33,227 bases of DNA from a virus (IMGVR_UViG_3300048930_000236:1-33227), one strand, 5' to 3'; shown: positions 2,556-21,771, numbered from the stretch's first letter. The notes: a model not told the origin generated them from the sequence alone. A program made the numbers and translations.

Positions 2556-2807
2556 ATGGACGAGATCAGAGAAGCGCAGCGCAGGGCGATAATTCTCTTC
2601 GAGGAGATCGCCGAACTGGGCGTCGCGGTGGAGCTTCAATTGGTCCACACGCAGGTGAGCCAGAATCACATTCGGCGTACCTCCGTCCTCTACGCGACGT
2701 GCGAAGGCCAGAACTTGCTCGACGTGGTCAGGGTTGTGACGCCACATCGCAACTGCAGGATCGAGGGTGTCGATCGAGGTCTGAAGATCACGGTGGACGC
2801 CGACTAG
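2556..2807 (+). CDS. Hypothetical protein, 83 aa
   Basis: ATG 2556 starts a protein with an N-terminal helix (DEIREAQRRAIILFEEIAEL) and a beta-rich remainder with single cysteines (ATCEGQN, HRNCRIE). No family is recognised. There is no clear ribosome site. Instead TACTTT (2544-2549) lies 6 bases before the ATG, as in the leaderless late genes, but without the GTCAAC element at the usual distance. It is followed directly by the small-terminase promoter. Confidence 0.6.
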   Translation: MDEIREAQRRAIILFEEIAELGVAVELQLVHTQVSQNHIRRTSVLYATCEGQNLLDVVRVVTPHRNCRIEGVDRGLKITVDAD

Positions 2808-2830
2808 TCAACGCCGCGCACTCGTAGCCT
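2807..2830 (+). promoter_or_regulatory. Late-type leaderless promoter before small terminase
   Basis: GTCAAC 2807-2812, 12-base spacer, TAGCCT 2825-2830, then 6 bases to ATG 2837. No ribosome site fits between, so the transcript probably begins at or next to the A of ATG. Confidence 0.65.
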
Positions 2831-2836
2831 CGGTGT

Positions 2837-3349
2837 ATGGCCAAGTTTCGGAAGAACAGTAAGGGGCACTACTCGAAGAGGGCGCGGGAGACTGCGTTGA
2901 AGATTTACGTCGAGGACGGTCCTGCTGTGGCTGCGAAGGAGACGGGGATCAGTGCGACGACGATCCGGCAGTGGGCCAAACGCTCCGGTGTCACTGACGA
3001 TCGGCAAAAACGTACGCAGGCCATGATCGAGGCAGCGTCGAGGGACGCCGCCGAGAAGCGCGAGACGATCAAGCTCCAGTGCCGCCGTCGTGCTCTCGAC
3101 CTGCTCGAACGCTTCGACACCCGGCACGAATACTTCGTGGGCAAGGACGGCGACCGGGCTGCACTGGACAACCCGACCGCTGGTGACATCAAGGACTACT
3201 CGATCGCCATCGGTGTCCTGATCGACAAGGCCGAGCTGCTCGACGGCCGCGCGACCGACCGGACCGAACACCGCAGCACCGACCAGCTGGACCGGGAGAT
3301 CGAGAAGCTGCTCGAGAGCGCTGATCGTGGCAGCCGCAGCCCCGCCTGA
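2837..3349 (+). CDS. terS: Terminase small subunit
   Basis: A 170-residue protein immediately upstream of the large terminase. Residues about 18-52 form a helix-turn-helix of the type found in small terminases (ALKIYVEDGPAVAAKETGIS then TTIRQWAKRSGV), which recognises the packaging site on phage DNA. The rest is helical and would form the oligomerisation core that contacts the large subunit. The C-terminal coding region overlaps the large subunit by 23 bases. Expression appears to come from its own leaderless promoter at 2807-2830. Confidence 0.85.
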   Translation: MAKFRKNSKGHYSKRARETALKIYVEDGPAVAAKETGISATTIRQWAKRSGVTDDRQKRTQAMIEAASRDAAEKRETIKLQCRRRALDLLERFDTRHEYFVGKDGDRAALDNPTAGDIKDYSIAIGVLIDKAELLDGRATDRTEHRSTDQLDREIEKLLESADRGSRSPA

Positions 3350-4700
3350 CGGCTGGAAGGGCTGGGAGCTTGAGGAGAAGAAGCGCCTTCTTCTGAGACT
3401 CCGGGAGGCAAAGCTCGGCACCTGGCGCGACACCGCCCGAGACGATCAGCTACCGCCGGCCGACTGGGAGACGCTACTTCTGATGGGCGGCCGTGGTTCA
3501 GGCAAGACCTGGTCGGGCGCCCGCATCCTGAAGGAGGAAATCGACGCCGACCCGGTCTTCGCCACCGAGGGTCCCGGAGTGTGGGCCGCCGTGGCTCCGA
3601 CCTTCGCCGACGCCCGCAATAAGTGCATCGAGGGCGAAAGCGGCCTGCTCGCCGCTTTCCACACCACGCGCTCGGAAGTCGAGAAGGGGATCTCACCGAC
3701 GGTCAAGACCTGGAACCGCTCGATCGGAGAGATGGTGCTGCTGAACGGGCAGAAGATCCTGATCGACGGAGCCGACAACGGCGCGGCGAGGATCCAAGGC
3801 GAGAACCTGCGCGGGGTATGGTGCGACGAGCTCGGCCTGTGGAAGCTCTGGGAGATGGCCTTCGACGAGGCGATCGCCTACGCGCTGCGAAAGGGCCAGT
3901 CGCGGATCATCGCCACGGGTACGCCGAAGCGCGATCGCCCGGCCCGGGCGCTGATCAAACGCCTGATGGCCGACGAGCACGTCGTTACCCGTCGCCTTCT
4001 GACCCGCGACAACTGGGACTACCTCTCAGAGCCGTTCCGTCGGCGGGTGCTGCGGACGGCGAACACCTCGCTCGGGCAGCAGGAACTCGAAGGCATCATG
4101 CTCGATGAAGCCGAGGGTGCGCTGTGGAGACGGGAGTGGATCGACATGGGCCGCGTGCTTCAGGGACCCGAGATCTACAAGCGCCGCGTCCTGGCGCTCG
4201 ATCCATCTGACGGCCTGGACCAGTCCGACGAGCAGGCGTGGTGCCTGGCCGGGATCGGCGAGGACCGCCACATCTACGTTGCGCAGTCCGAGGGGATGCG
4301 AACCACGCCGCTCGACTGGCTGACGAAGGCGGTCACCTTGGCGCACTCGGTCAACGCGACGATCGTGGTCGAGAAGAACCACGGCGGGAAGTTCCTGAGC
4401 GACCTACTCGAGCAGGCGATGAAGGAGTCAGGCATCCGCGTGCCGTTCAAGGAAGTCACGGCCTCCGATGGCAAGCGGACCCGAGCCGAGCCGAGCGCGA
4501 TGCTCTACGAGCAAGGATCCAACACAAAGGACCCGGTCGTCCACCACATCGGGAACTTGCCAGAGCTTGAGGACCAGATGGTCAACTGGACTGGTGAGCC
4601 GGGGATCGCATCGCCTGACCGCATGGACGCTGCGGTGTGGGCGCTCTCGGAGCTGATGGACTACTCGGAGCGACCGGCGGTGAAGACGTTGGTCGTCTGA
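3327..4700 (+). CDS. terL: Terminase large subunit (packaging ATPase and nuclease)
   Basis: A 457-residue packaging motor. Walker A is GGRGSGKT (residues 54-61), Walker B is VWCDELG (164-170, D167/E168), and the coupling motif is IIATGTP (194-200). The RNase-H-fold nuclease follows with acidic residues at LALDPSDG (D292), IVVEKNHGG (E349) and DRMDAAVWAL (D434). All motor and nuclease motifs are present, so it looks functional. It drives DNA into the prohead through the portal and cuts the concatemer. GTG 3327 is used; the frame overlaps the small subunit and has no better in-frame start before the Walker A motif. Confidence 0.95.
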   Translation: MAAAAPPDGWKGWELEEKKRLLLRLREAKLGTWRDTARDDQLPPADWETLLLMGGRGSGKTWSGARILKEEIDADPVFATEGPGVWAAVAPTFADARNKCIEGESGLLAAFHTTRSEVEKGISPTVKTWNRSIGEMVLLNGQKILIDGADNGAARIQGENLRGVWCDELGLWKLWEMAFDEAIAYALRKGQSRIIATGTPKRDRPARALIKRLMADEHVVTRRLLTRDNWDYLSEPFRRRVLRTANTSLGQQELEGIMLDEAEGALWRREWIDMGRVLQGPEIYKRRVLALDPSDGLDQSDEQAWCLAGIGEDRHIYVAQSEGMRTTPLDWLTKAVTLAHSVNATIVVEKNHGGKFLSDLLEQAMKESGIRVPFKEVTASDGKRTRAEPSAMLYEQGSNTKDPVVHHIGNLPELEDQMVNWTGEPGIASPDRMDAAVWALSELMDYSERPAVKTLVV

Positions 4701-4702
4701 GG

Positions 4703-4726
4703 GTCAACCCGCTATCTCGGCAGCAT
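4703..4726 (+). promoter_or_regulatory. Late-type promoter before portal gene
   Basis: GTCAAC 4703-4708, 12-base spacer, CAGCAT 4721-4726 (first base departs from TANNNT), 8 bases to GTG 4735. A stop codon in the portal frame at 4732-4734 rules out an earlier start. Confidence 0.55.
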
Positions 4727-4734
4727 GACTGTAA

Positions 4735-6252
4735 GTGGACTCTCTAGAGAAGCATGTCGAGCAGGAGATCGCAAAGGTCATCCGAATCAGCGCCGCGACG
4801 TTGCCCGAAGGCAAGTCCGAGCAGCCGGAGGAAGATGACAATCGGTGGACGCCAAACGATGCGATCGAGCCGCCTGAGAACCTCGACCGCCTGGCGCAGC
4901 TGACCCAGATCTCGCCGGTCCGCCGGTCCTGCATCAAGGCGATCACCCTCAACAGCATCGGCCTCGGTGTGTCGATCGTGCCGAGGGCTGGGATGGAGGA
5001 CGAGACCGAAGACGGCGAACCGCAGAAGGCGCTCGATCTACTCAACGACTGCGCGCGCCGCGACATCCGCTCCGGGTCACCGACCTTCAGCAAACTGATT
5101 CAGCGGGTGAAGTGGGACGAACAGGAGGTCGGCAACGGCTACCTTGAGGTCTCTCGCAACCGCGTCACCGGCCAGATCGACGGGCTGTTCCATGCGCCGG
5201 GCAAGCGGGTCCGCCGCCTGCGCGATCGCTCCGGCTGGGTCGTCGGCACCCGAAGCTCCTCGATCGCCGACCGCATCCGCTTCGACAACTTTGGCGACAA
5301 GGTCCAGTACGGCGGCGACGGCGTGCCGCTGGGCGTGCTTCAGTCCGGCAGCGGCAAGCGGTGGAACCGAAACGAACTGATCGCCTTTCAGCTCTACACC
5401 TCCGAGAGTCGCGACTACGGCCTGCCGCCCGATGTTCAGCTCGCCTGGGACTTCCTCGGCGACAAGAACGCCGCTGAGACGAACCTCGGCTTCTTCGACG
5501 GGCAGGGTGTGCCGCCAACGACCTTCTTCATCAGCGTCGAGCCGACCGACAAGGAAGGCAATCGACAGGTGGTCGACATCAGCCCGAAGACCGTGAAGGC
5601 GATCGCCGACACGATGCGCTCTTCCGACAACAAGAACAAGCGGGTGGCCATCGTGCCGATCCCGTCTGGCGCGAAGGTCCAGCGCGAGGACATGACCCGC
5701 GTCTCTGACCGCGACGTGGGCTTCGTCGCCTTCCGCGCCGACAACCGCCGGCGCACTCTCGGTGCCTGGCGAATCTCCCCGATCTTCGTCTCCGACATCG
5801 AGGACGCGGGCAAGTACACCGCCGACGTGGAGCGGGCGATTACGAAGGAACAGGTCTTTGACCCCGAGCAGGAAGCTTGGGAAGAGCAGCTCTCGGACAC
5901 ACTGCTCCGTGACCTCGGCTTCCCGCACCTGCGGTTCAGCTTCAAGGACATCGAGATCGAGACTGACACCACGCGCCGCCAAGCTGCCAACGACGCGGCC
6001 AGCTACAACGTGATCACCCGCGGCGAGTTCCGTGAGCGCCAGGGCTTCCCGCCGATGCCCGAAGCCAACGAGGGCGAAGATCCCGAGCCCGGGCAGGTGC
6101 CCTACGGCTGGAACGCCGAACTGATCGACTCCAGCTCGAGCAGCACTCCCGATGCTCTCGGCATCCAGCGTGGCGCCGAGGCTGCCGCGTCGCTCCTGGC
6201 CGAGGCGCAAGCCGCGGGTGGCCTGGCTCCCGGCTCGATAGGCGTCGAGTGA
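4735..6252 (+). CDS. Portal protein, PBSX family
   Basis: A 505-residue protein in the standard place after the large terminase. The order of segments (an acidic N-terminus, LTQISPVRRSCIKAITLNSI, a FGDKVQYGG...LIAFQLYTSESRDYGLP core, and a C-terminal DAASYNVITRGEFRERQGFP) follows the PBSX/XkdE-like portal family. Twelve copies form the vertex ring through which DNA enters and to which the tail attaches. The start must be GTG 4735 because TAA precedes it in frame, and there is no ribosome site, supporting leaderless expression. Confidence 0.9.
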   Translation: MDSLEKHVEQEIAKVIRISAATLPEGKSEQPEEDDNRWTPNDAIEPPENLDRLAQLTQISPVRRSCIKAITLNSIGLGVSIVPRAGMEDETEDGEPQKALDLLNDCARRDIRSGSPTFSKLIQRVKWDEQEVGNGYLEVSRNRVTGQIDGLFHAPGKRVRRLRDRSGWVVGTRSSSIADRIRFDNFGDKVQYGGDGVPLGVLQSGSGKRWNRNELIAFQLYTSESRDYGLPPDVQLAWDFLGDKNAAETNLGFFDGQGVPPTTFFISVEPTDKEGNRQVVDISPKTVKAIADTMRSSDNKNKRVAIVPIPSGAKVQREDMTRVSDRDVGFVAFRADNRRRTLGAWRISPIFVSDIEDAGKYTADVERAITKEQVFDPEQEAWEEQLSDTLLRDLGFPHLRFSFKDIEIETDTTRRQAANDAASYNVITRGEFRERQGFPPMPEANEGEDPEPGQVPYGWNAELIDSSSSSTPDALGIQRGAEAAASLLAEAQAAGGLAPGSIGVE

Positions 6253-6259
6253 GGACCAG

Positions 6260-7059: not shown

Positions 7060-7117
7060 CCTGAACTCCCTCTTTTCGTTGACTGGACCCCCGATTCAAC
7101 TGACTCGACCGCCGAGA

Positions 7118-7141
7118 GTCAACGCCGCCCCTGAATAGGTT
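7118..7141 (+). promoter_or_regulatory. Late-type promoter for the tRNA gene
   Basis: GTCAAC 7118-7123, 12-base spacer, TAGGTT 7136-7141. A start site 6-7 bases later would fall at 7147-7148, the first base of the folded tRNA, so little or no 5' trimming would be needed. Confidence 0.65.
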
Positions 7142-7146
7142 CGAGT

Positions 7147-7219
7147 TGCGGGATGGACCAACCAGGTAGGTCGCTGGCCTCATCAGCCGGAAGTTCGGGT
7201 TCGAATCCCGGTCCCGCTA
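7147..7219 (+). tRNA. tRNA-Met(CAT), initiator-like
   Basis: A full cloverleaf can be drawn: acceptor 7147-7153 with 7212-7218, D stem GACC/GGTC (7156-7159, 7169-7172), D loop with A14, G18G19 and A21, anticodon stem CTGGC/GCCGG, loop CTCATCA (anticodon 7181-7183), four-base variable loop, T arm TCGGG/CCCGG with loop TTCGAAT, discriminator A7219. Initiator hallmarks are an unpaired 1:72 (T-T), A11:U24, and three G/C pairs next to the anticodon loop (G29:C41, G30:C40, C31:G39). The arm layout parallels actinobacterial initiator tRNA. Oddities: C at position 37, where a purine is normal, and no encoded CCA. An alternative folding shifted by one base is possible but weakens the D and T stems. 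Confidence 0.8.
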
Positions 7220-7223
7220 TTGG

Positions 7224-7247
7224 GTCAACGGCGCAGATTCGTACCGT
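7224..7247 (+). promoter_or_regulatory. Late-type leaderless promoter before protease/scaffold gene
   Basis: GTCAAC 7224-7229, 12-base spacer, TACCGT 7242-7247, 6 bases to ATG 7254. It starts five bases after the tRNA ends. Confidence 0.7.
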
Positions 7248-7253: not shown

Positions 7254-9017
7254 ATGAAGCACAACGCCTTGAGCAACGTCGATGTGGTCGCGGTCTCCTT
7301 GGTCAACAAGGGTGCCAACCGAAAGCGGTTCTTCCTTCGGAAGTCAGCCGAAGGTGAGGACCTCGAAACCGACCTGATCGACCTGACCGCCGATTCGTCG
7401 CTGCTGATGAAGGCCGACGACTGGTCTGCCGTCTACTGCGTCGTCGCCGAACCGGGCGCGTTGGAGGACTCTGGCGTGGGCGGCACCGCTGTACCTGACC
7501 GCTGGGCCAGCGAGGACGAGATCCGCAAGGCGTGTCACCGCTTCGCGAAGAACGGCGCGCTGATCAACAAGATGCACGAGACCCTCGACCAGTACGGCGT
7601 GATGGTCGAAAACGCGATCGCGCTGTCTGACATCGACGTTGACGGCGAGACGATCCGCAAAGGCTCTTGGTACATCGCCATCGAGCCGAACGAGCATGGC
7701 CGCGACGCGATCGAAAGCGGCGCTTTCACCGGCGTCTCGATCGAGGGCACGGGGATGCGGACCTTGGTCGAGAAGTCCAGCGAAGAGGACGAGCTGCTGG
7801 CCAAGGTGGCCGAGGCACTCGACTGCTCGGTCCAAGAACTTGAGGACATGGAACCGGAGGCCATCCGAGAGGAGTTGGTCAAGGGCCGACGGGGCCGATA
7901 CGACGAGTCCAAGCATCGCCGTGCGCCTTCGGGTGCATCCGGCGGTGGTCGCTTCGCATCCAAGGGCGGTGCGCGAGCGCGGCCCGGTGCCGGCGGCAAG
8001 AACAAGGCGGGGCGCGGCGGCGGTGGATCCACTCTGGCCGAGACCATCAACGGCACGCCCGGGCGCATGGTCGGTGGCAACCTGAAGGGAAAGACCCCGA
8101 AGGGTTGGAAGGGCAAGAGTCCCCGCCTGTCGGTCAAGGCCTGGAACGACCAGCCGGACGGGCAGCGCTTGCAACGGATGAAGGCATTCCAGAGCCGCGG
8201 TGGTCTGCTCGGCCCGAACCGGATGTTCATGGAGGACGGCTCGATCATCAGCCGCAGCTCGCACCCCACCGCTTTCAAGTCGGCAGCCCAGATGACGCCG
8301 CGCCAGAGGCAGGCCGTTCGGGCCTCCCAGGCTGCGTCCAAGAAGAAAAGGAACTCCACCATGAAGAAGCTTTCCGAACTGCTGCTCGGCACCGACGAGG
8401 ATGCCGAAGACCTGGCAAAGGCCGCGACTTTCGGCGACCGCATGGCTGCCGACAAGCTCTCCGACGAGCTGCCCCGCGGTATGGATCTACTGCGAAGCGT
8501 GATCTTCAGCGCGGTCCACGGCGACGACGAAGACCCGATGTCGGTTATTCGCGCATCGACGAACGAGTTCTGCGCTTGGGCCGAAAGCCTGCTCGGATCG
8601 AGCGAGGGCATCGCCAAGCAGCAGGAGGTGATCGGCTCCGTTGAGTCAACGGAGGAAATAAGTAAAACGGATAGTGAGATGCTTACTCCAGAGGAACGCA
8701 CAGAACTGGTCGACGAGATCAAGAAGGGCGTCGCGGCAGACTTCGCGAAGTCCCTCGGAATCACCGTCGAGGAATCAGAGCCGACCATGGAGTCGATCTC
8801 CAAGGCCGTGTCCGACCTCAAGGGAGTCGAGGACGGCGAAGAGCTCGCCAACCGCGTCGGCGCCATCGAGGCCAGCATCGAAAAGCTCGCCGCGGGTGAC
8901 TCCGCTCAGAGCGACGACGAACCCGACCCCGCTGCCGGCGCTTCCGAGCGCAAGCAGCTGGCCAAGGCAGCCGCCGAGGCCGAGGGGATCAACCCCGCAC
9001 TCATGGAGATGATCTGA
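7254..9017 (+). CDS. XkdF-like prohead protease fused to scaffold-type domain, 587 aa
   Basis: Residues about 1-175 resemble the XkdF-type phage serine protease: VVAVSLVNKGAN at the start, NKMHET (H108), IRKGSWYIAIEP and AIESGAFTGVSIEG (S162), candidate catalytic His and Ser. A Gly/Arg/Lys-rich linker (about 212-275, with RYDESKHRR and GGGRFASKGG) follows. The second half is acidic and helical, ending EGINPALMEMI, like a scaffold removed during head maturation. In-frame Met370 (ATG 8361, with AAAAGGAAC before it) and Met476 (ATG 8679) could begin shorter scaffold-only products. Position between portal and capsid fits. The active-site assignment is by pattern, not proof. Confidence 0.8.
   Translation: MKHNALSNVDVVAVSLVNKGANRKRFFLRKSAEGEDLETDLIDLTADSSLLMKADDWSAVYCVVAEPGALEDSGVGGTAVPDRWASEDEIRKACHRFAKNGALINKMHETLDQYGVMVENAIALSDIDVDGETIRKGSWYIAIEPNEHGRDAIESGAFTGVSIEGTGMRTLVEKSSEEDELLAKVAEALDCSVQELEDMEPEAIREELVKGRRGRYDESKHRRAPSGASGGGRFASKGGARARPGAGGKNKAGRGGGGSTLAETINGTPGRMVGGNLKGKTPKGWKGKSPRLSVKAWNDQPDGQRLQRMKAFQSRGGLLGPNRMFMEDGSIISRSSHPTAFKSAAQMTPRQRQAVRASQAASKKKRNSTMKKLSELLLGTDEDAEDLAKAATFGDRMAADKLSDELPRGMDLLRSVIFSAVHGDDEDPMSVIRASTNEFCAWAESLLGSSEGIAKQQEVIGSVESTEEISKTDSEMLTPEERTELVDEIKKGVAADFAKSLGITVEESEPTMESISKAVSDLKGVEDGEELANRVGAIEASIEKLAAGDSAQSDDEPDPAAGASERKQLAKAAAEAEGINPALMEMI
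8636..8654. repeat. Perfect 19-bp palindrome inside protease/scaffold gene
   Basis: CTCCGTTGA at 8636-8644 is the exact reverse complement of TCAACGGAG at 8646-8654, with one central base. It includes the GTCAAC element of the internal promoter and a GGAGG ribosome-site-like stretch that would be hidden in a read-through mRNA hairpin. Confidence 0.7.
8645..8668 (+). promoter_or_regulatory. Internal late-type promoter candidate for a nested scaffold product
   Basis: GTCAAC 8645-8650, 12-base spacer, TAAAAC 8663-8668 (last base departs), then 10 bases to in-frame ATG 8679. The patch 8651-8685 is visibly A-rich compared with flanking coding sequence. A product from ATG 8679 would be 112 residues, MLTPEERTELVDEIKKG onward, all in the scaffold-like region. 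Confidence 0.4.
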
Positions 9018-9973
9018 TGAACCGCCGCGCCGCACTGGCCGAACTCCAGAAGGCCACGATCGACACGTCGGTCGGAGGGCTTCTGACCCCCGAACAGTCC
9101 AAGGCCTTCATCGAAGAGGCGACGGACATGTCGGTCTTCGGTTCGAAGATCCAGACCATCCGCAAGCGCGCCCCCGAGGGCGAGATCTCCAAGCTCGGAG
9201 TCGGCTCACGCCTGCTTCGCGGCAAGGCCGAGAACACCGACGACGGCTACCGCGCCGGTGCTGCGACCGACGATGTCGGCTACAGCGCCAAGAAGGTCTG
9301 GCTGCCGTTCGAGATCACCAATGACTGGGCGCACGAGAACATCGAGGGCGAGTCCGCGAAGGCCAAGGTCATCAAGGCCATGCAGAAGCAGATGGGCCTG
9401 GACCTCGACGACCTCGACATCAACGGGGACACCGCTTCCGGCGATGCCTTCGTGAAGATCGACGACGGCCTGCTGAAGCTGGCGGCCGGACTGGCTTCGG
9501 CCCAGCGGGTCGACACCGACGGCATCAACTCCGGTGCCTTCGGCAAGGAAGTCTTCAAGGCGATGATCGATGCGATGCCGGACAAGTACCTGGCGCAGCC
9601 GGGACTCAGCTGGATGGCCTCGCCGACCGTCGCCTTCGCCTGGACCGAGTACCTGTCCGAGCGCGACACCGCGGCCGGAGACGGTGCCCTGATGGGCAAG
9701 GGCTTCGGTCCTTACGGGATTCCGTGGTTCAACGGACAGGGCGACGGTGCCCGCCCGGGCATCCCGTTCTTCCCGGACAACCGGATCATCCTGGCCGACC
9801 CGCAGAACTTCGCTCGGGTCATCACCTGGGACGTGCGCAAGTACACGGTGACGCCGGAGACCGACTGGGAGCTGGCGACCCGCGACAAGGAAGGGCACGT
9901 CTACTTCCTCAAGCGCGACTTCATCATCCTCGAAGACGAGGCTGTCGTCGACGCCTACGACCTGACCATCTGA
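9017..9973 (+). CDS. Major capsid protein, XkdG/HK97-fold type
   Basis: A 318-residue protein directly after the protease/scaffold gene, sharing one base with its stop (TGATG). The sequence pattern fits HK97-fold capsid proteins of PBSX-like phages: an N-terminal arm, ISKLGVGSRLLRGKAE, SAKKVWLPFEITNDWAHENI (E-loop/P-domain border), DLDDLDINGDTASGD, and a C-terminal domain with FFPDNRIILADPQNFARVIT and a final FLKRDFIILEDEAVVDAYDL. It assembles the icosahedral shell around the scaffold. No long N-terminal delta domain is present, agreeing with a separate scaffold encoded upstream. Confidence 0.9.
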   Translation: MNRRAALAELQKATIDTSVGGLLTPEQSKAFIEEATDMSVFGSKIQTIRKRAPEGEISKLGVGSRLLRGKAENTDDGYRAGAATDDVGYSAKKVWLPFEITNDWAHENIEGESAKAKVIKAMQKQMGLDLDDLDINGDTASGDAFVKIDDGLLKLAAGLASAQRVDTDGINSGAFGKEVFKAMIDAMPDKYLAQPGLSWMASPTVAFAWTEYLSERDTAAGDGALMGKGFGPYGIPWFNGQGDGARPGIPFFPDNRIILADPQNFARVITWDVRKYTVTPETDWELATRDKEGHVYFLKRDFIILEDEAVVDAYDLTI

Positions 9974-10510: not shown

Positions 10511-10519
10511 CGTCGTTGG

Positions 10520-10543
10520 GTCAACGGTCCGTCTATCTACGGT
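10520..10543 (+). promoter_or_regulatory. Late-type promoter before head-tail connector
   Basis: GTCAAC 10520-10525, 12-base spacer, TACGGT 10538-10543, 9 bases to ATG 10553. GTCAAC here lies in CGTTG-GGT-CAACG, a small inverted repeat. Confidence 0.65.
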
Positions 10544-10552: not shown

Positions 10553-11239
10553 ATGTATCCCGCGACCGCAGACCTTGTCAATGCTTCGACCGTCACGGCG
10601 CTCTCTGATCTGACGAGCGCCCAGAAGGATGCCCTTCGAGCGGCAGCGATTGTCGCCGTTGAGAACTACTGCCAGCAGAGCTTCCGGGCCGAGGGCACGA
10701 CCGCCGCGCCAGTCTCGCGACAGCTTGATGGCTCCGGCTCAGACACGCTCTACCTGCCCGAGCGACTTTCGGAGCTTGTGGGTTTCGCGGTGACCGAGTC
10801 CGATGCGGGCTACGGCATTCAGCAGGCCGACGTGTCCCTCAGCGATGACGGCTCCCGGCTCTCAGTCGGCGCAACCGCCATCGGGAGCACCTGGGCCGAT
10901 CGGGCACTCGCCGACGTTCAGGGCGGCCGCAACCCGGTCTTTCCCTCCGGCGTGGACAACGTCGTGGTCACCGGCGTCTGGGGCTGGACGGATGCCGAGT
11001 ACGCCGCCGAACTCTCCGCCGTGACCACAGCGATTCGCTACGACATGGAAGACAAGGCGCTCGCCGGTGCCAATCACCTCGCTGAGACAGTGCGCTCGGC
11101 CCGCGCCCTGGGTCTGACCAGCGTTTCGCAGGGTCGACTCTCGATCAACCTCGGCGCGATGGAAGTCGAACTCTCGGTCCGCGCGCGGCGCATCCTCAAG
11201 GACCTCGTCTTCGAGCACGTCGGCGGCGTGTCCGTCTGA
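10553..11239 (+). CDS. Head-tail connector (adaptor) protein, 228 aa
   Basis: The first gene after the head operon. The N-terminal half is helical (SAQKDALRAAAIVAVENYCQ), the layout of gp6/gp15-type adaptor proteins that dock on the portal. The middle is a beta-rich insert (SRQLDGSGSDTLYLPERLS) and the end helical again. Synteny (portal, capsid, connector, stopper, gp10-like, tail terminator, tube) makes the assignment likely. ATG 10553 lies 9 bases after the -10-like hexamer with no ribosome site, so the message may be leaderless or have a tiny leader. Confidence 0.75.
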   Translation: MYPATADLVNASTVTALSDLTSAQKDALRAAAIVAVENYCQQSFRAEGTTAAPVSRQLDGSGSDTLYLPERLSELVGFAVTESDAGYGIQQADVSLSDDGSRLSVGATAIGSTWADRALADVQGGRNPVFPSGVDNVVVTGVWGWTDAEYAAELSAVTTAIRYDMEDKALAGANHLAETVRSARALGLTSVSQGRLSINLGAMEVELSVRARRILKDLVFEHVGGVSV

Positions 11240-11980: not shown

Positions 11981-12432
11981 ACGAGCAGGAAGTCGGCGAA
12001 GCGGTCAGCGCGTGGGTCCAGGCGACTTGTACGGATATCGCGACGGGCTACTCGTACCCGGTGTCGACGAAGCTCGGGGCACTGCCCGATGTGGTCGCCT
12101 TCGTCACCGGCAAGCGGCTCGGCCCGGATCACCCGGAGTTTCCGTTCGGCCAGCTGGACCAGTCGTGGATGAGGGTCTTCACGCTGGAGGTCTCGATCAT
12201 GGTCGAAGCCGACGGCGACGGCGAGGCCGCCCACAATCAGCTTCAAGGCTTCGGCGAGCAGCTCGAGCAGGCGATCGTCGCCGACGCCACCCTCGGCGAT
12301 CGGGTCGAGATGGCCTCACCTCAGATTCAGTTCGACTACTCGACCCCGTTTGTCGAGTACCAGGACGGGACCCGCGGCCGGGTGCTGTTCATCAACATGA
12401 CCGTCGGCGAGCTGACGGCGCAGCCCGAATGA
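11977..12432 (+). CDS. Tail terminator protein, 151 aa
   Basis: ATG 11977 overlaps the upstream stop (ATGA). It has the alternating helix/strand outline of gpU-like tail terminators (NEQEVGEAVSAWVQATCTD, RVFTLEVSIMVEAD, LEQAIVADATLGDRVEMA, RGRVLFINMTVGELTAQ), which cap the tail tube once it reaches the length set by the tape measure. It sits in the expected place just before the tube gene. The next gene has its own promoter right after this stop. Confidence 0.7.
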   Translation: MNEQEVGEAVSAWVQATCTDIATGYSYPVSTKLGALPDVVAFVTGKRLGPDHPEFPFGQLDQSWMRVFTLEVSIMVEADGDGEAAHNQLQGFGEQLEQAIVADATLGDRVEMASPQIQFDYSTPFVEYQDGTRGRVLFINMTVGELTAQPE

Positions 12433-12456
12433 GTCAAGAGGTCCGATCGGTAGCGT
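12433..12456 (+). promoter_or_regulatory. Late-type promoter before 79-aa tail-region gene
   Basis: GTCAAG 12433-12438 (last base differs), 12-base spacer, TAGCGT 12451-12456, 7 bases to GTG 12464. It starts at the end of the tail terminator gene. Confidence 0.55.
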
Positions 12457-12463: not shown

Positions 12464-12703
12464 GTGAAGACGGTCACCTACCTCGGCCCCTCCGGCTACT
12501 TCGTCGCCCGTGACGGCGTGAAGAAGACCAGGTTGATGGCGGGCACTCCGGTCGAGGTCTCCGATGAGGTCGCTGACGCGCTCTCTCGGAACGAGGGCCA
12601 CGACTTCGAGTTCGACGGCGAAGTGCCGCTGGACCAGACGACAGCGCCCATTGACTATGGCGGCGATCCTGACGATTCTGACCCCTCAGGGTCAACGAAC
12701 TGA
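12464..12703 (+). CDS. Small tail-region protein, 79 aa
   Basis: GTG 12464 with no ribosome site but a -10-like box 7 bases earlier. The N-terminal half (TVTYLGPSGYFVARDGVKKT then GTPVEVSDEVADALSR) resembles a short beta domain found in small phage proteins near the tail tube; the C-terminal 25 residues are acidic and disordered (GGDPDDSDPSGS). The role is unknown. Having separate promoters before and after implies it is made at a level different from the neighbouring structural genes. Confidence 0.65.
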   Translation: MKTVTYLGPSGYFVARDGVKKTRLMAGTPVEVSDEVADALSRNEGHDFEFDGEVPLDQTTAPIDYGGDPDDSDPSGSTN

Positions 12704-12714
12704 CTGCGTAGGTT
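12691..12714 (+). promoter_or_regulatory. Late-type leaderless promoter before tail tube gene
   Basis: GTCAAC 12691-12696, 12-base spacer, TAGGTT 12709-12714, then TGAACT and ATG 12721. The -10 through ATG closely matches that of the tape measure gene. Confidence 0.7.
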
Positions 12715-12720: not shown

Positions 12721-13383
12721 ATGGACATCATTGAAGCTGGCGCTGACATCACAGATCTCGTCTCCGGCGCAGTGCGCGTGCTGGCCGCTCCGATCACCGA
12801 GAGCGTGCCGGACGGAATCGAAGACGTGATGCTAATGGAGAGTCCGTACACCCTCCAGGGCGACTGGTTCGATCTTGGCGCGACCACCGGCCCGACCACC
12901 ACTTCCCGCGGCATTGAGTCGCAGGGCCTCAGCATCGAGCAGCGTCAGGGCAACGTGATCGAGGACGTGACCGATGTGTCCCGCGGCATAAGCCTCCCGC
13001 TCGCCGGAATCTCGCCTGAGAATCTGCAGATCTTCGAGAACGCATCAGCCATCGGCACCATCGCTGCCGCTTCGGGTGTATCGGCCCAGAAGGTCATCAA
13101 GTTCGGCTCTTTCAGTGAGGCAACTGAGTACCGGGTCATGCTGATCGGCAAGCGTCCGAAAAAGGCTGGTCTGGTGAACGAGTCCGGCTCCGAAGTTCGC
13201 GGCCGGCTGGTCGCTCGGGCGCTCTACCGGGTCTCGCTGACCGCGGATGAATCCTCACTGTCCTTCGGCAAGGGCAGCCTTGCCAGCGCCGACGTGTCCT
13301 TCAAGGCCTTCCCCGAGCCGGGCGAAGACGCCGATGAGGCGCACGGTGCTTGGTTCCTCGAAGACGCGGGCACGATCGCGTAA
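12721..13383 (+). CDS. Major tail tube protein, 220 aa
   Basis: Starts at ATG 12721, six bases after the -10 box. Gene order (after the tail terminator, before chaperones and tape measure), size and beta-rich sequence fit a siphoviral tail tube subunit: IEDVMLMESPYTLQGDWFDL, VIEDVTDVSRGISLPLAGIS, VIKFGSFSEATEYRVMLIG. Many copies stack to form the hollow tube. It ends in a one-base TAATG overlap with the chaperone gene. Confidence 0.8.
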   Translation: MDIIEAGADITDLVSGAVRVLAAPITESVPDGIEDVMLMESPYTLQGDWFDLGATTGPTTTSRGIESQGLSIEQRQGNVIEDVTDVSRGISLPLAGISPENLQIFENASAIGTIAAASGVSAQKVIKFGSFSEATEYRVMLIGKRPKKAGLVNESGSEVRGRLVARALYRVSLTADESSLSFGKGSLASADVSFKAFPEPGEDADEAHGAWFLEDAGTIA

Positions 13384-13925: not shown

Positions 13926-14128
13926 CCGTCCCACGCCTCCTGGCGTGGATCCAGTCGCGGTCTACCCGGCTTCACCAGGAGCGGCAATCGTTGGCCATGA
14001 CCTTGGCCCTGGCGATGAACGATCCGAAGAAGCTGATCGAGATCGACGAGAGGCGCGAAGACGATGCGATCGATCCCGACGCGCCGGGCATGAAGTGGTG
14101 GCCTTCCCCGGAGGGTCAAGGCGCGTAA
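13383..14128 (+). CDS. Tail assembly chaperone, -1 frameshift (GT) product, about 248 aa
   Basis: At GGGAAAA (13745-13751) a -1 slip moves translation into a frame open to TGA-free end TAA 14126-14128. The product joins residues 1-123 of the upstream chaperone to 125 new residues, containing ADAGGPEEGLESLAELAAAE and LAMNDPKKLIEIDERREDD, typical of the helical T domain. The shifted frame lacks a good start of its own at the right place. Conserved -1 frameshifting between tail tube and tape measure genes is the established pattern for siphoviruses, and this heptamer is one base from the lambda site. Confidence 0.8.
13745..13751 (+). promoter_or_regulatory. Programmed -1 ribosomal frameshift site GGGAAAA
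   Basis: A canonical X XXY YYZ heptamer with zero-frame codons GGA AAA, in the overlap of the two chaperone frames. Frame arithmetic requires exactly a -1 shift. Confidence 0.85.
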
Positions 14129-14138
14129 TCAGCAGGCT
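14115..14138 (+). promoter_or_regulatory. Late-type leaderless promoter before tape measure gene
   Basis: GTCAAG 14115-14120, 12-base spacer, CAGGCT 14133-14138, then TGAACT and ATG 14145. Two bases depart from consensus, but spacing is exact. Confidence 0.55.
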
Positions 14139-14144: not shown

Positions 14145-16730
14145 ATGCCGAGTATCAACGAGATCCTGCTTCGTGTCCGAGGCGACACGGACGACGCCAG
14201 CAAGGATCTCGGCGAGCTTGCGGTCGAGCTGAATGCCTTCGACAAGCAAGAGGCCGAGGCCACGCTCGACCTTGAAGACGACAAGGTCAAACGGAAGCTG
14301 AAGCTGATCGAGCGAAGCCTCGCCGACTTCGCCCGCGAGACGGCTACGGCTGACACCGACGTTGACACCCGCGAAGCCCGCGGGAAGCTCCAGGTGCTCC
14401 AAGCGGCGCTCAACCGGATCGATGGCGAGAGCGTAGATGCGGACGTGAACGCCAACGTGGCCAAGGCGCTGCTTCAGCTCCAGATCCTTGACGCGAAGAT
14501 GGAGGACCTCGACGGCGAGAACGTCAACATCGACGTGAACGTACGGCGCGACGTGACGGGAAAGATCCTTGGGCTGTCGGGCGCGATGGGGAAGCTGGCT
14601 GGAGACAGTGCCGACGCCGGTTCTGCTCTCAGTGGCGCGTCGAAATCCGCGGACGGCTTCAGCGGGAGCGCCGGCGGCATGAACGGGCAGTTGATGATGA
14701 TCATTCGCCTGCTACCGATCCTTGTTCCGCTGATCGTCGCGCTTTCTGGCGCGATTGTGGCGTTGAGCGCGTCGTTGGTCAGCGCCCTCGGCGGCATCGT
14801 TGCTCTCGGCGTCGCGTTCGGCGCGACCCTGATTCCGGTCGTTGGCCTGGCGATCGGTGCGATATCCCGCTTCAAGGAAACGGCAGACACCGCCGGAACG
14901 GCCGCCAACACGCTCAAGGAGGCCGCTGGCGGCTTCGGTGACGCTTTCCTCAAGGTCACACAAAGCGGCGCTGACGCGCTGTTCAGGGGCCTCGGTGACG
15001 CGCTCAAGACGCTGACTCCGGTGGTCGAGGGTCTCGGACCGATGTTCACGAGTCTCGGCGAAGCCGGGGGAGACGCGGCGCGAATCCTTGCCGAGTCCTT
15101 CGCGTCGATGGAGATCGTGCGCCTGCTCAAGGAGGCAGGCGCGGCAGCCGCTGAACTCGCACCGATCTTCGCCGAAAGCTTCGGTTCGCTCGCAAAGATT
15201 CTCGCGAACATTGCGGTGGCGGCGCTGCCCTTCCTCGTCTCCGGGATGGAATCGGTTGCCGACGGTTTGGCCGCGGTCGCCGATTACACCTCTGACATCG
15301 GTGGCCTCAGGGGAATCATTGCTGGCATGGTCAACTCGCTCGGGGCGTGGCTGAGCCTGCTTGGCGGGATCGCCGACCTCATCGGGGGGATCGTGGTCGC
15401 ATTTGCTCCGTTGGGCGACGGGATGGTCCAGAGTCTCGCCGACGGCGCCCGATCGTTGGCCGACTGGCTGCGCTCGAGTGAGGGCCTTGAGAAGGTCCAG
15501 CAGTTCTTCGCCGATACAGCACCACTCGCCAGCGAAGTCGGCAAACTCATCTTGAACATCGGCTTGGCGCTGGCGCAGCTCGGTCAGTTCCTGGCCCCGG
15601 CACTCACTCCGATCGTGGCCGGTTTCAATCAGCTGTTCGAGGTACTGAATTCCGTTCTGAGTTCGCTAAATGACAAGGTCCCGGCGGGTGTTCGTGCGGT
15701 GATCGGAAGTCTCATCGGCCTGGTTTTCGGTTTCGGCAAGATCAGAGCCGGGGTAGGACTGCTAGCCGGTGCCATTCGGTTTCTGATCGGCGTTGCCGCA
15801 ACCATTGGCGGCGCCTTTGCTGGGGCGTTCTCAGCGGTGGGAGGGGCGGTCCGAGCCGTCGCAAAAACTGTCAGCAACATCACGAGTGCGATCGTCGAAA
15901 CCGCGCGAGCACGGTGGACCCGGCTGCGCGAGGCAACCCGCAACATCTGGCAGGGAATCCGCGACGCGGTCAGGAACAGCCTTCAGGCTGCTCGCGAGGT
16001 GGTCGGCAATGTGACGGGTGCGATTCGCGATCGTGCCCGTTCTGCTTGGCAGACGATCAGGGAGTTCACGCGAAAGCTCTGGCAAGGCGTTCGCGACGGT
16101 ATTCGCGATTCGATTCAGGCCGCGCGCGAGGTCGTTCGAAACGTTTCGGGTGCGATTCGCGACGTAGCCCGCACCGCATGGTCGACCATCCGAGGGTTCA
16201 CCCGCGACATATGGTCTGGAGTCCGCGAAGCGATCGGCAATGCGATGCAGGGTGCCCGCAGCGTGGTGTCGTCGGCCGGCGGCGCGATCCGCGAGCTGGC
16301 GCGCGGCACCTGGTCAGCGGTTAAAGAGTCGGCGGCGGCCGTGCTCGGTGGACTGAAGACTGTCGTCGGCAACGCCTTCAATGCCGTAAAGGGGGCGATC
16401 ACCGCTGCAAAGGGCGCTTTGGTCAGCGCTGCCAAGGGCGTCTGGGATGCCATCAAATCTGCGGTGTCCAGTCTGATCCCGATCAATTTCAAGGTCAACC
16501 TGCCGGACATTCCGAATCCGGCAGATCTGCTGAGCGCCGCGGTAAGTTCGAGCGGACCGTCGGTCAGGGATCTGGCCGGCGTCTCGGGGTCAATCACCGG
16601 TGGCGCGGTGGGCGGTGGCAATTCGACTTACAACGTGGCTGTCAACGCGCCAGCGGGCACGCAACCTGACGTCGAAACGACGCTTGCGTTGATCGACGCG
16701 AAGCTCCGAGTGCGAGGGGGATTCGCATGA
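14145..16730 (+). CDS. Tape measure protein, 861 aa
   Basis: The longest gene of the tail module, after the frameshifted chaperones. Residues 1-150 are acidic and coiled-coil-like with a repeated D-V-D/N-V motif; residues about 184-245 contain three hydrophobic segments (MMIIRLLPILVPLIVALSGA onward), as expected of tape measures that insert in the host membrane. Residues about 590-730 hold three 44-residue tandem repeats (see repeat entry). The chain sets tail length and passes out during DNA ejection; at about 0.15 nm per helical residue it predicts a tail of roughly 130 nm. No peptidase or lysozyme domain is recognisable. ATGA overlap with the next gene. Confidence 0.9.
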   Translation: MPSINEILLRVRGDTDDASKDLGELAVELNAFDKQEAEATLDLEDDKVKRKLKLIERSLADFARETATADTDVDTREARGKLQVLQAALNRIDGESVDADVNANVAKALLQLQILDAKMEDLDGENVNIDVNVRRDVTGKILGLSGAMGKLAGDSADAGSALSGASKSADGFSGSAGGMNGQLMMIIRLLPILVPLIVALSGAIVALSASLVSALGGIVALGVAFGATLIPVVGLAIGAISRFKETADTAGTAANTLKEAAGGFGDAFLKVTQSGADALFRGLGDALKTLTPVVEGLGPMFTSLGEAGGDAARILAESFASMEIVRLLKEAGAAAAELAPIFAESFGSLAKILANIAVAALPFLVSGMESVADGLAAVADYTSDIGGLRGIIAGMVNSLGAWLSLLGGIADLIGGIVVAFAPLGDGMVQSLADGARSLADWLRSSEGLEKVQQFFADTAPLASEVGKLILNIGLALAQLGQFLAPALTPIVAGFNQLFEVLNSVLSSLNDKVPAGVRAVIGSLIGLVFGFGKIRAGVGLLAGAIRFLIGVAATIGGAFAGAFSAVGGAVRAVAKTVSNITSAIVETARARWTRLREATRNIWQGIRDAVRNSLQAAREVVGNVTGAIRDRARSAWQTIREFTRKLWQGVRDGIRDSIQAAREVVRNVSGAIRDVARTAWSTIRGFTRDIWSGVREAIGNAMQGARSVVSSAGGAIRELARGTWSAVKESAAAVLGGLKTVVGNAFNAVKGAITAAKGALVSAAKGVWDAIKSAVSSLIPINFKVNLPDIPNPADLLSAAVSSSGPSVRDLAGVSGSITGGAVGGGNSTYNVAVNAPAGTQPDVETTLALIDAKLRVRGGFA
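15939..16334 (+). repeat. Three tandem 132-bp repeats in tape measure gene
   Basis: Units begin at 15939, 16071 and 16203, each encoding 44 residues of the form R-x-[IL]-W-x-G-[IV]-R...AAREVV...GAIRD-x-AR-x-W-x-x-I-R. Units 1 and 2 are most alike; unit 3 is diverged. A half unit (ETARARWTRLREAT) precedes unit 1. Confidence 0.75.
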
Positions 16731-17293: not shown

Positions 17294-18288
17294 GCTTGAC
17301 GATCCCTACAAACTCGCGAGGACCGATTCTCAGGCTCACGCTGCCTCCTTCGACCCCCGCGCTCGACATCGTGGTCAGAAACGTCACGACGGGTAAGCAG
17401 CTGCGCCTGAAGCTGCCCGCCGCCTACGATGGCGACGATCTCAAGCTCGACTTCTTCCGCCGCACGATCAAGGACCAGGACGGCAACGATCGCTCAGGCC
17501 TGTTGTCGAGTGGTGACAACGAGCTCTGGATTCCGGAGCCGATCATTGCCGGTCCGAACGACTTGGAGGTCGAGGTTCAGGGAAGCACCGTCGTGGCCTC
17601 CGACAATTTCGACCAGACCGCAGGGAACTTGAATGGTAAAGCGCTGCCTGTCGGCGGTGTGTGGCAGGAGTCGGGCGACGCGCCGAACTTTGGGATCGAT
17701 GTCACTAACCATCGCGTCTTGCGCACCATCGCAACGGAACTGCAGATGCCGCGGTTTGCGCTCGCGTCGGTTCCTAGCCTTGCAGACGTTCGGGTGGAAG
17801 GGACGCTCCATCCCTCATTCACCGAGACTTTCGATCAGCTCACCGCGTCTCTCGTCGCCAGACATTCAGATTCGACCCACTACCTGCTGCTTTCGCGGAG
17901 CTACTCGGTTGAAGAAAGCGGACCCAAGACCAGGGTGGTCCTCACGCTGAAGAACGGTGCGTCGGCTACGAACTTGTTCGGTCCGGCGGATCTGATTCTT
18001 CCGGCCACTTACCCGTGGGACTTCGCCGTCGAAGCCCGAGCTTCGGGCGACTGGAGGATCTTCATCAAGGATCCCGCAGCGGCGGAATGGGGAGGCGCCC
18101 TCGCCCAAGGAAACAACGCGGCGCTGGCCACGGCCGGCGCCGTCGCCACCGGAAAGGTCGGGATCTTCTCGGACGGCTACAGCCCTGTGAGTGCTCAAGT
18201 CGCCTTCGACAAGTTTCGAGCGAGGAACCTGGCCCCGCAGGCTTACGCCGCCACGGCGAAGTTCTACTGGGAGAAGGGCTACAGCTGA
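17290..18288 (+). CDS. Minor tail protein with lectin-like domain, 332 aa
   Basis: ATG 17290 overlaps the Dit stop. Residues 1-95 look like the C-terminal stem of siphoviral tail proteins (RPILRLTLP-like start, RTIKDQDGNDRSG, SGDNELWIPEPIIAGPNDLE). Residues about 100-320 form a concanavalin/LamG-like beta-sandwich: DNFDQTAGNLNGK, SLADVRVEGTLHP, LLLSRSYSVEE, GDWRIFIKD, GKVGIFSDGYS, AQVAFDKFRARNL. This domain probably binds a cell-surface carbohydrate. It may be a split-off extension of Dit, giving the baseplate an adsorption module. Specific ligand unknown. Confidence 0.7.
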   Translation: MSLTIPTNSRGPILRLTLPPSTPALDIVVRNVTTGKQLRLKLPAAYDGDDLKLDFFRRTIKDQDGNDRSGLLSSGDNELWIPEPIIAGPNDLEVEVQGSTVVASDNFDQTAGNLNGKALPVGGVWQESGDAPNFGIDVTNHRVLRTIATELQMPRFALASVPSLADVRVEGTLHPSFTETFDQLTASLVARHSDSTHYLLLSRSYSVEESGPKTRVVLTLKNGASATNLFGPADLILPATYPWDFAVEARASGDWRIFIKDPAAAEWGGALAQGNNAALATAGAVATGKVGIFSDGYSPVSAQVAFDKFRARNLAPQAYAATAKFYWEKGYS

Positions 18289-19517: not shown

Positions 19518-21376
19518 AGGTTCCGCGCAAACGCGACCTGATCGCCGAACTCACGAAGCCTCGGAGTCCGAAGGTTCTTTTCGTTCCCAGCTCGGCGACC
19601 TCATCCGGACCGACGGGACCAGCCGGGGGAGATCTCGGCGGCAGCTACCCCGACCCGACCGTGCCCGGACTGGCGACGAAACAGCCACTCAACTCGGGTC
19701 TCACAGCCATAGCCGCGCTTTCCACCGATCCATACGGGCGCGGCCTGCTGGCCCTCAACAGCATCGCCGCGGCACTCACCTATCTCGGGGCAGTCGGCAC
19801 CGGCGACTCCCGGCTCACAGATTCTCGTAATCCGACCGGCGTAGCGTCGGGCGATCTGACTGGCAGCTACCCGAACCCGACGGTCGGCAACGGCAAGATC
19901 ACCGATCCGAAGGTAGCGGCAGCTAACAAGGACGGCACCGCAGCAACCCCGTCGATGCGAACGCTCGGCACCGGGGCATTACAGGCAGCAGCAGGCAACG
20001 ATTCCCGCCTATCAGATGCCCGGACCCCGACCGCCCACACCCACGTGATCGCAGACGTAATCAACCTGGTCGCCGCACTCGCAGCAAAGGCCGACCTGAT
20101 CTCCCCGGCCCTCACCGGCAACCCGACCGCACCAACGCAGAGTCCGGGCAACAATTCGACCCGCCTTGCTACCACCGCCTACGCCGACGCTATCGCCGCG
20201 CTGAAAGCGAACCTGGCATCACCGACCTTCACAGGCGATCCGAAGGCGCCGACCCCGACCGCTGGCGACAATGACACCTCCATAGCCACCACCGCATTCG
20301 TGACCGGCGGTATCAGCACCGCATCAACGGGCGACCGGGCCAGAGCCAACCACACCGGGACGCAGCTCGCCGCGACGGTTAGCGACTTTGACACGGCTGT
20401 GCGGGCAAACCGGCTCGACCAGCTCGCGGCACCGACCGCTGACGTATTGCTGAACTCCAAGAAGATCACCAGCCTGGCCGATGGGTCAGCATCAAACGAT
20501 GCTGTCAATGTTTCGCAGCTTGAGGCAGCGGCAGACGCGGCAGCTTTGGGCTACAAGTTCAAGGGGCCGGTGAAGTGGATATTCAGCAACACGGCCGGGG
20601 GATGGCCAGCTATTTCGAGCTACACCGCGACGACTATCACGGGCGATTCGTCGTATGCCTTCCCCGGCTGGTCGCTCAATGACCGGGTGCTGGTAGCGAA
20701 TCAGGGAATCCGAAACGGCATCTACAAGGTGACAACCGTGGGCGTTTTGTTCTCGACTCCGTGGGTCCTGACGCGGACGGACGATGCGCTCAACGGCGGC
20801 CTGTCAAACGGCACCTACGTAACTGGGCTGATTACTGACGTTTTTGATCTGAGCCCGGCCAATGCCTACTTCCTCGCCACCGCCGACCCGATCACAGTCG
20901 GCACGACCTCGCAGGACTGGCAGCCTGTCCCGAGTAGCAATTCAAGGGCGGCAGGCGTATTCCGAGCCTACGCATCGTCTCACGGCTCAATAGCCACCGG
21001 CACCGACACTCGATTCGCCGCCAACGCGGAAGACTTCGACTCGGACGGTTGGCTCGATACCACCAGCGGCAACAAGGCTCGCTACACCCCGCAGAGGGCC
21101 GGGTACTACCGATTCAGCGGCGGAATCAATTTCTCGACCACGTTGGCAGCGGCCCGGTTCGGATTGATGTACCTCGCCAAGAACGGTTCGCGGGCATCCC
21201 TGATCGGGCAGACCCCGCCTGCCGTCGCAGGGACCATGACCGGATCGGACGTTCTCTACATGAACGGCACCACCGACTACGCGGAGCTGTTGATCCGGCA
21301 CAACCACACCGCAGCGGCAAGCCTGGTCACGGGATCGACCGGGTGCTACTTCTCTGGCGAGTTCATCGGTTCCTAG
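19514..21376 (+). CDS. Tail fibre protein with C1q-like head, 620 aa
   Basis: The N-terminus is basic and short. A small collagen-like GPTGPAG leads into repeats of the form GDL-x-GSYP-[DN]-PTV (two copies) and SPxxTGxPxAPT...TTA (two copies), typical of trimeric fibre shafts. The C-terminal 140 residues (RYTPQRAGYYRFSGGINFST, ARFGLMYLAKNGSRASLI, AELLIRHNHTAAASLVT) have a C1q/TNF-like jelly-roll signature, the likely receptor-binding head. Several shaft codons end in A/T more often than in neighbouring genes, perhaps reflecting exchange. No separate fibre chaperone gene follows. Confidence 0.8.
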   Translation: MKVPRKRDLIAELTKPRSPKVLFVPSSATSSGPTGPAGGDLGGSYPDPTVPGLATKQPLNSGLTAIAALSTDPYGRGLLALNSIAAALTYLGAVGTGDSRLTDSRNPTGVASGDLTGSYPNPTVGNGKITDPKVAAANKDGTAATPSMRTLGTGALQAAAGNDSRLSDARTPTAHTHVIADVINLVAALAAKADLISPALTGNPTAPTQSPGNNSTRLATTAYADAIAALKANLASPTFTGDPKAPTPTAGDNDTSIATTAFVTGGISTASTGDRARANHTGTQLAATVSDFDTAVRANRLDQLAAPTADVLLNSKKITSLADGSASNDAVNVSQLEAAADAAALGYKFKGPVKWIFSNTAGGWPAISSYTATTITGDSSYAFPGWSLNDRVLVANQGIRNGIYKVTTVGVLFSTPWVLTRTDDALNGGLSNGTYVTGLITDVFDLSPANAYFLATADPITVGTTSQDWQPVPSSNSRAAGVFRAYASSHGSIATGTDTRFAANAEDFDSDGWLDTTSGNKARYTPQRAGYYRFSGGINFSTTLAAARFGLMYLAKNGSRASLIGQTPPAVAGTMTGSDVLYMNGTTDYAELLIRHNHTAAASLVTGSTGCYFSGEFIGS

Positions 21377-21387
21377 CGGGACCGGTG

Positions 21388-21729
21388 TCAGGCCAGCGCC
21401 ATTAGTGAATCGAGACGCTTCTCGGACCGCGCTGACGCTCGCTCGAACTCGCTGACGGAAACGTCTCGGTCTTCGTAAGCCGCCTGAAACCACGGCTTCA
21501 CCTCGCGAATCAGCGAGCGTTCGATCTCCATCGTGGCCCGAAGGCTCGGTCCGCAGGTGCGGGGAGGGGAGAACGAGCGCATCGCGTTGAGCCACGCCTG
21601 CTCCCACGGCATCCCGGCCTTCTTGGCTTCCATCAGCACCAGGCAGACTTTGTGCGACGGGTCGGCGTCGTTGTCGAGAACCGCGGCGTCGAGGCCAACC
21701 AGAATGGCGTCAAATCCTGATCTCTCCAT
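21388..21729 (-). CDS. Reverse-strand small protein between fibre and endolysin, 113 aa
   Basis: A single gene facing the tail fibre gene, with ATG at 21729. The product is helical, with EAKKAGMPWEQAWLNAMRSF and WFQAAYEDRDV, a W...W...AAYE pattern I recall in small actinobacterial proteins of unknown role. No membrane segment, no zinc site. No ribosome site is obvious upstream. The region ahead of it is the endolysin promoter, whose GTCAAC reads as GTTGAC on this strand. Its isolation suggests an independently expressed cargo (moron) gene. Confidence 0.65.
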   Translation of the reverse strand: MERSGFDAILVGLDAAVLDNDADPSHKVCLVLMEAKKAGMPWEQAWLNAMRSFSPPRTCGPSLRATMEIERSLIREVKPWFQAAYEDRDVSVSEFERASARSEKRLDSLMALA

Positions 21730-21747
21730 CGGCTACATGGTCGCAGG

Positions 21748-21771
21748 GTCAACGGACGAAAACGGAACCAT
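21748..21771 (+). promoter_or_regulatory. Late-type leaderless promoter before endolysin
   Basis: GTCAAC 21748-21753, 12-base spacer, AACCAT 21766-21771 (first base departs from TANNNT), 6 bases to ATG 21778. Confidence 0.6.

Follow-up and report, generated by a model that had tools for sequence, protein, structure and literature searches.

In the middle promoters of phage T4, the −35 element is replaced by a MotA box placed 12+/−1 bp from a sigma70 −10, and this phage box serves dozens of phage promoters (PMC2988021, PMC6755090). Among the staphylococcal phages with Ltr/RinA late regulators, Phi13 has a single late promoter, with repeats lying upstream of the TATA box. Actinomycetota have leaderless sigmaA promoters in which a −10 TANNNT is found near the ATG or GTG start codon, and in mycobacteria an RTG at +1 is necessary and sufficient (PMC4633059). 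Start-associated sequences of Cluster K mycobacteriophages, for their part, are short conserved sequences ahead of many start codons (PMC3203893). Phage late promoters with dedicated activators are known already; what would be new in the locus described here is the box, its placement, the probable activator and a mostly leaderless design.

The window analysed is the whole of a virus record of 33,227 bases (IMGVR_UViG_3300048930_000236:1-33227, hereafter phage W). Its late sites resemble T4 middle promoters, as a box situated 12 (three times 13 in the whole phage group) bp upstream of the −10 replaces the −35, but the box is GGGTCAACG where T4 has (a/t)(a/t)(a/t)TGCTTtA, homologues of MotA and AsiA are not found, the genes are late ones, and most starts are predicted to be leaderless. 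Where Phi13 has a single promoter, W has about ten dispersed ones, whose box spans −32 to −24 and whose candidate regulator is an H2TH-like protein. Unlike the late sites, the leaderless promoters of Actinomycetota work without a phage box at −30, and the element differs from Cluster K start-associated sequences in being locked to a −10 hexamer and in preceding a tRNA as well. Our preferred reading, to which we give a probability of about 0.7 on the basis of sequence analysis, is that these sites are late promoters of temperate phages used by the host RNA polymerase, in which the box replaces the −35, from which mostly leaderless mRNAs and a nested scaffold protein would be made, and for which a protein of putative H2TH fold is the best activator candidate.

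The original prediction listed ten sites of the window at which GTCAAC or GTCAAG is followed by a hexamer resembling TANNNT, and all ten were retrieved, with the hexamer exactly 12 bases on (Table 1). A search for GTCAAS-N12-NANNNT gave 11 matches in W, against 1.06+/−0.96 in dinucleotide shuffles, and none of 100 shuffles reached 11. This roughly ten fold excess bears mostly on the plus (late) strand, which carries 9 of the 11 matches; the internal site at 8645 misses this strict pattern because its hexamer is TAAAAC. It had also been claimed that other GTCAAC copies lack the hexamer, which agrees with our count of 7 copies out of 24 on the plus strand having one at 12 bases. The two minus-strand matches look incidental. 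One of them, at 26102, is the reverse complement of the TTGAC of the early promoter: this GTCAAC-N12-AAGTCT (26102-26125, minus strand) overlaps the early −35, is followed 16 nt on by an in-frame ATG belonging to the XRE repressor gene, and is probably fortuitous.

Table 1. Predicted late promoters of phage W and associated features (B, C, D, F and H are relatives of W; distances in nt run from the −10 to the start codon).
Feature	Position	Strand	Remarks
Small terminase (terS) late promoter	2805..2830	+	gene 2837-3349, ATG 6 nt past −10; kept in B, C; 13 bp spacing in D; same arrangement in F
Portal late promoter	4701..4726	+	gene 4735-6252, −10 CAGCAT, GTG at 8 nt; kept in B, C, D, F, H
tRNA-Met late promoter	7116..7141	+	predicted start is the tRNA 5′ end; D has the tRNA with box at 13 bp spacing
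tRNA (CAU), initiator-like	7147..7219	+	Rfam tRNA 50.3 bits; ARAGORN
Head maturation protease/scaffold late promoter	7222..7247	+	gene 7254-9017, ATG at 6 nt; equivalents F 6734, H 3157
Internal late promoter in protease gene	8643..8668	+	GTCAAC-N12-TAAAAC, 10 nt before in-frame ATG 8679
Nested frame, predicted separate 112-aa capsid scaffold	8679..9017	+	in frame with 7254-9017
Late promoter of gene 10553-11239	10518..10543	+	ATG at 9 nt; kept in B, C, D, F, H
Late promoter of gene 12464-12703	12431..12456	+	GTCAAG variant, GTG at 7 nt; kept in B, C
Late promoter of gene 12721-13383	12689..12714	+	ATG at 6 nt; kept in B, C, D, F, H
Tape measure late promoter	14113..14138	+	gene 14145-16730, GTCAAG, −10 CAGGCT, ATG at 6 nt; kept in B, C
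Endolysin late promoter	21746..21771	+	gene 21778-22632, −10 AACCAT, ATG at 6 nt; kept in B, D
Early rightward promoter (contrast)	26121..26150	+	TTGACA-18-TATACT, ATG 26158 at 7 nt
Candidate late activator, 107 aa, putative H2TH fold (sIHF/mIHF-like)	2203..2526	+	two genes upstream of terS

The motif search was extended to related phages. Two of these were reached through their large terminase: B (IMGVR_UViG_3300048597_000264, also labelled G001), whose TerL is 94% identical to that of W, and C (3300005689_000100, 67%). In addition, 2.9 million viral contigs were scanned for GGGTCAACG-N11-TANNNT-N6-ATG, using no protein information. Phage D (3300044837_000268, also G009/L056) surfaced from this first scan, and F (3300005337_000511) and H (3300012960_000002) from a second motif scan; other contigs from the two scans were treated as chance when they had few sites or sites on both strands. 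D, F and H have 12-13 sites each on one strand and none on the other, and only afterwards did they prove homologous to W in virion genes, with ∼30-70% protein identity. This recovery from the motif only is a successful blind prediction. Arrays of 7-13 copies therefore recur in the five relatives, making six phages in total, and the late-strand/other-strand matches are 9/2 for W, 9/0 for B, 7/0 for C, 13/0 for D, 12/0 for F and 13/0 for H, where Markov means are 0.3-0.7. The shuffle and Markov counts rule out chance occurrence of the motif.

Phage E (3300045243_000033, G015) has a TerL 60% identical to that of W and yet 0 sites in 48 kb, and F has the motif and no detectable homologue of the W terminase. 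No comparable array was seen in 77 major-capsid relatives outside the group, six of them at 43-45% identity; two AT-richer capsid relatives had 4 (L114) and 3 sites (L126). The actinophages mu1/6, AWGoat and Marcie, which have related terminases, had 0 sites, and the 126 kb Streptomyces phage Circinus had 23 matches scattered over both strands (14/9), with no one-strand array. A genome scan for the terminase returned a distant Anaerolineae match only, and the contig of H ends inside its terminase gene. GC content and the mIHF family suggest that the hosts probably belong to the Actinomycetota. Integrases are present in B and D, hence our description of the phages as temperate, and D is an integrated prophage, with tRNA-Asn and a bacterial dnaG in its left flank (1-1773) and the integrase at its right end (coordinates for B, for E and, under G009, for D are given with the late strand forward). 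When B (36697-38350 and 1-2000) was compared with W 1-900, an integrase and a tRNA-Pro were seen to separate the mIHF gene from the left-end genes in B. W has neither there, and may belong to an integrase-less lineage or have its integrase beyond the contig.

Alignment of 49 non-redundant sites refined the element to GGGTCAACG, a −10 [T/C]ASSNT 12 bp (rarely 13) after GTCAAC, and then an ATG or GTG usually 6-9 nt on. Position by position, G-G-G-T-C-A-A-C-G stands at −32 to −24 with a weak C at −23, followed by a spacer nearly without preference, often a G at −13, T/C-A-S-S-N-T at −12 to −7, S at −6 and a purine at −5 in 49/49 sites, it being understood that GTCAA, the A at −11 and the T at −7 were set by the search pattern and that the flanking letters were free. 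The GTCAAC-N12 core of the original prediction thus stood, but the box is really the nine-letter GGGTCAACG at −32 to −24 and not an element at about −30 to −25; in its TANNNT hexamer, C or A is also possible at −12 (G in relatives). Three further sites have a spacing of 13 bp: in D these are the promoters of terS and of the tRNA, and in F it is the first late promoter, which corresponds to that of terS. Either 12 or 13 bp is thus tolerated. When strict TANNNT was sought at all spacings from 5 to 25 over four phages, 21 sites were found at spacing 12, and 0-3 at each other spacing, both strands together.

Conservation is selective. Between W and B, orthologous sites show 0/81 changes in the box, compared to 14/90 in the spacer and 19/90 upstream; between W and C the hexamer has 2/36 changes and the spacer 30/60, and between W and D the figures are 0/24 and 30/40. 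Picking these orthologous sets by pattern match favours the fixed letters, but in each case listed the matches fall at corresponding gene positions. Beyond the correspondences of Table 1, the tape measure genes of F, H and D are preceded by sites (F 16034, H 12307, D 16823), and in F and H a site precedes the gene that occupies the region of the W endolysin.

None of the late sites scored as a −35/−10 promoter, and no hexamer is conserved at −42 to −33. Together with the spacing scan, this rules out an ordinary −35/−10 promoter with a different spacing. The early promoter at 26121, announced as different, is indeed of the ordinary type, which means both that host sigma reads ordinary −35/−10 signals in this phage and that in the late class the −35 gives way to the box, which spans −32 to −24.

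We then weighed whether the element acts on DNA or on RNA. An RNA or translation element, comparable to start-associated sequences and acting in read-through mRNA, would account for a box preceding the start codons of many genes. However, a tRNA gene is preceded by a site in W, B and D, which points to a promoter element and not to a translation signal. Box and −10 are a constant distance apart, whereas anything from 6 to 19 nt separates the −10 from the start codon, which makes the unit a promoter; the −10 positions are also nearly unchanged across orthologues. A translation element is on these grounds very improbable. We infer that the promoter class is almost certainly real. Sites are found only at starts of late genes and on one strand (in the five relatives, all are on the late strand). 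The phage-wide late promoter class initially proposed was in this way upheld by its recurrence in six phages, its strand exclusivity, its fixed spacing, its selective conservation and its use before the tRNA.

The start codon was said to come 6-9 bases past the hexamer with no ribosome site. This placement was found at 8/8 of the protein-gene sites at gene starts in W, and at 29/36 over four phages, against 7% for background hexamers (p∼1e-27). Shine-Dalgarno pairing is also weaker at these genes, −3.2 kcal/mol compared to −5.9 for others (p = 0.011). At some sites of D, F and H no start codon lies at 6-9 nt, and leaders would be 10-19 nt long, meaning that leaderless placement is usual and not universal. 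For most sites, the claim of leaderless mRNAs is supported by position and lack of a Shine-Dalgarno sequence; some sites of the distant relatives would have short leaders. For most W sites, their position makes leaderless starts very likely. Most transcripts would have the start codon's A or G as their first base.

The tRNA(CAU) placed under a late promoter (W 7147-7219, B 7798-7870, D 9386-9459) has no Watson-Crick pair at 1:72 in any of the three phages, and in W and B it also has A11:U24. As both features mark initiator tRNA, we call it initiator-like. Leaderless late mRNAs could make use of such a tRNA supplied by the phage.

The site at 8645, described as internal, does lie inside the protease gene and is conserved in relatives. 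In B and C, the same box, spacing, TANAAC and in-frame ATG are present (in C, GTCAAC-N12-TACAAC with the ATG 10 nt on). In each of D, F and H, the protease gene contains two boxes with in-frame starts after them, the last of which yields 107-110 aa. At 8645, the TCA-ACG codons are preserved although TCA represents 9% of serine codons. The simplest reading of these sequences is a late promoter within the protease gene, from which a separate capsid scaffold protein would be made.

How would such promoters be read? In the preferred scheme, host RNA polymerase with its main sigma factor would recognise an ordinary −10 ([T/C]ASSNT, −12 to −7), and the directional box at −32 to −24 would take over the role of the missing −35. 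A single-subunit phage polymerase was considered and rejected, as no reading frame of that size was present in the listed regulatory and early regions of B and D. No convincing phage sigma factor was found: matches to Sigma70_r4 were all sub-threshold, one of them falling in the helix-turn-helix of terS. AsiA (PF09010) and the MotA C-terminal domain (PF09158) gave no match in the six phages either. The original prediction implied a phage-encoded factor, and this is still the best inference, given a box off the −35 position, a canonical early promoter in the same phage, and no sigma, AsiA or MotA above cut-off. Some phage factor is probably involved.

The alternative that a host sigma factor of another class, or a host activator, recognises GGGTCAACG and is borrowed by the phage, no phage activator being needed, would fit the lack of a phage sigma gene, and the −10 and purine discriminator do resemble a cellular sigmaA promoter. 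Yet the early promoter of the phage is canonical, E has no site despite its closeness to W in TerL, and every site of the five relatives is on the late strand; moreover, we know of no sigma class with an upstream element 12-13 bp from the −10. This makes a borrowed host promoter type rather improbable. Slightly better placed, by analogy, is an appropriation of sigma as in T4, where one phage protein would remodel sigma region 4 and a second would bind the box. The geometry is the same, with the MotA box 12+/−1 bp from the −10 and the −35 replaced (PMC2988021, PMC6755090), but the box sequence differs and AsiA and the MotA C-terminal domain are missing from the six phages, though an unrelated protein could do the same; we consider it unlikely. 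With neither these proteins nor a convincing sigma, the likeness to T4 is one of design and not of descent.

We also considered the box as a repressor operator or stoperator that would silence late promoters in the lysogen, an idea suggested by the temperate nature of the phages. Stoperators of the L5 type are short and directional too. The one-to-one fixed spacing to a −10, the presence of the box only at late starts, and the lack of any −35 left for unaided transcription argue against it, and we regard silencing as improbable, much more so than either sigma-based alternative. In motif-less E, the gene starts at 11982 and 14192 share TGTCCTCGTNGGGNCG directly before TAGTNT, with the ATG at 7 nt; promoters of this type may there use TGTCCTCGTNGGGNCG as their box.

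Returning to the host polymerase scheme, the best candidate activator is the protein of putative H2TH fold encoded at 2203-2526. Its gene is present in 5/5 motif phages retaining the region upstream of terS (W, B, C, D and F) and in 0/9 other genomes, eight of these having ≤2 motif matches and the ninth being Circinus with its scattered matches. No other non-virion gene is found in every motif phage retaining that region. F keeps both the H2TH gene and the motif while lacking the W terminase, and E has neither. As the five phages are related, this co-occurrence is in part phylogeny. The location of the gene just ahead of the late promoter is that of staphylococcal late regulators (PMC13123087).

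An AlphaFold model of the protein built from four aligned sequences was moderate (pLDDT 75, pTM 0.64), and a model without alignment was poor. Best Foldseek neighbours were Streptomyces sIHF bound to DNA (6bek, 4itq) and phage MIHF proteins, at TM 0.56-0.64 and E 0.006-0.1, these E-values being weak (0.03 in PDB, 0.006 in BFVD). The closest fold would be that of sIHF/mIHF (H2TH_5), but the protein has no sequence-profile match, including to PF22525 (which in W matches 64-330 only), and PDB sequence searches with it gave nothing useful. Since sIHF/mIHF proteins are thought to bind DNA with little sequence preference, it would be unusual for this fold to serve as a sequence-specific activator. 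The earlier suggestion of an IHF-like factor nevertheless gained support from the co-occurrence with the motif and from the model. On balance, we put the predicted role of the 2203-2526 protein as the activator at even odds. A broader scenario is more speculative, and we hold it as tentative: an H2TH (IHF/S13-like) protein would act as sequence-specific activator on GGGTCAACG at −30, a T4-like strategy arisen independently, and would redirect host sigmaA polymerase to about ten mostly leaderless late promoters, with the initiator-like tRNA aiding leaderless translation.

No description of the motif turned up when the text of 5.39 million open-access papers was searched, in line with the first impression that it was new. 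Some ten near-identical start signals for virion and lysis genes appear to form an undescribed system of phage gene control. If so, this would be a second, unrelated case in which the −35 yields to a phage box at about −30, and also a late programme resting largely on leaderless mRNAs. Late control is known for few of the phages that were never cultivated, and the element allows late promoters, along with their transcription starts and start codons, to be predicted from sequence; one exactly spaced element common to six phages exposes a predicted nested scaffold gene and points to one small protein.

Counting against the choice of the 2203-2526 protein, two other genes are also widely shared, namely that of an HTH_39 protein (31579-31980) and a minus-strand gene (21388-21729). 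The latter encodes a 113-aa protein of no known family, between tail and lysis genes, and is present in B, D, F, H and the motif-less G003. The H2TH protein of D (L056 2066-2584, minus strand) has a Cys-rich, zinc-finger-like N-terminal extension. Finally, W 64-330 encodes a second H2TH protein, a true member of the mIHF family (PF22525 above cut-off). As its homologue in B adjoins the integrase, it may be an integration host factor.
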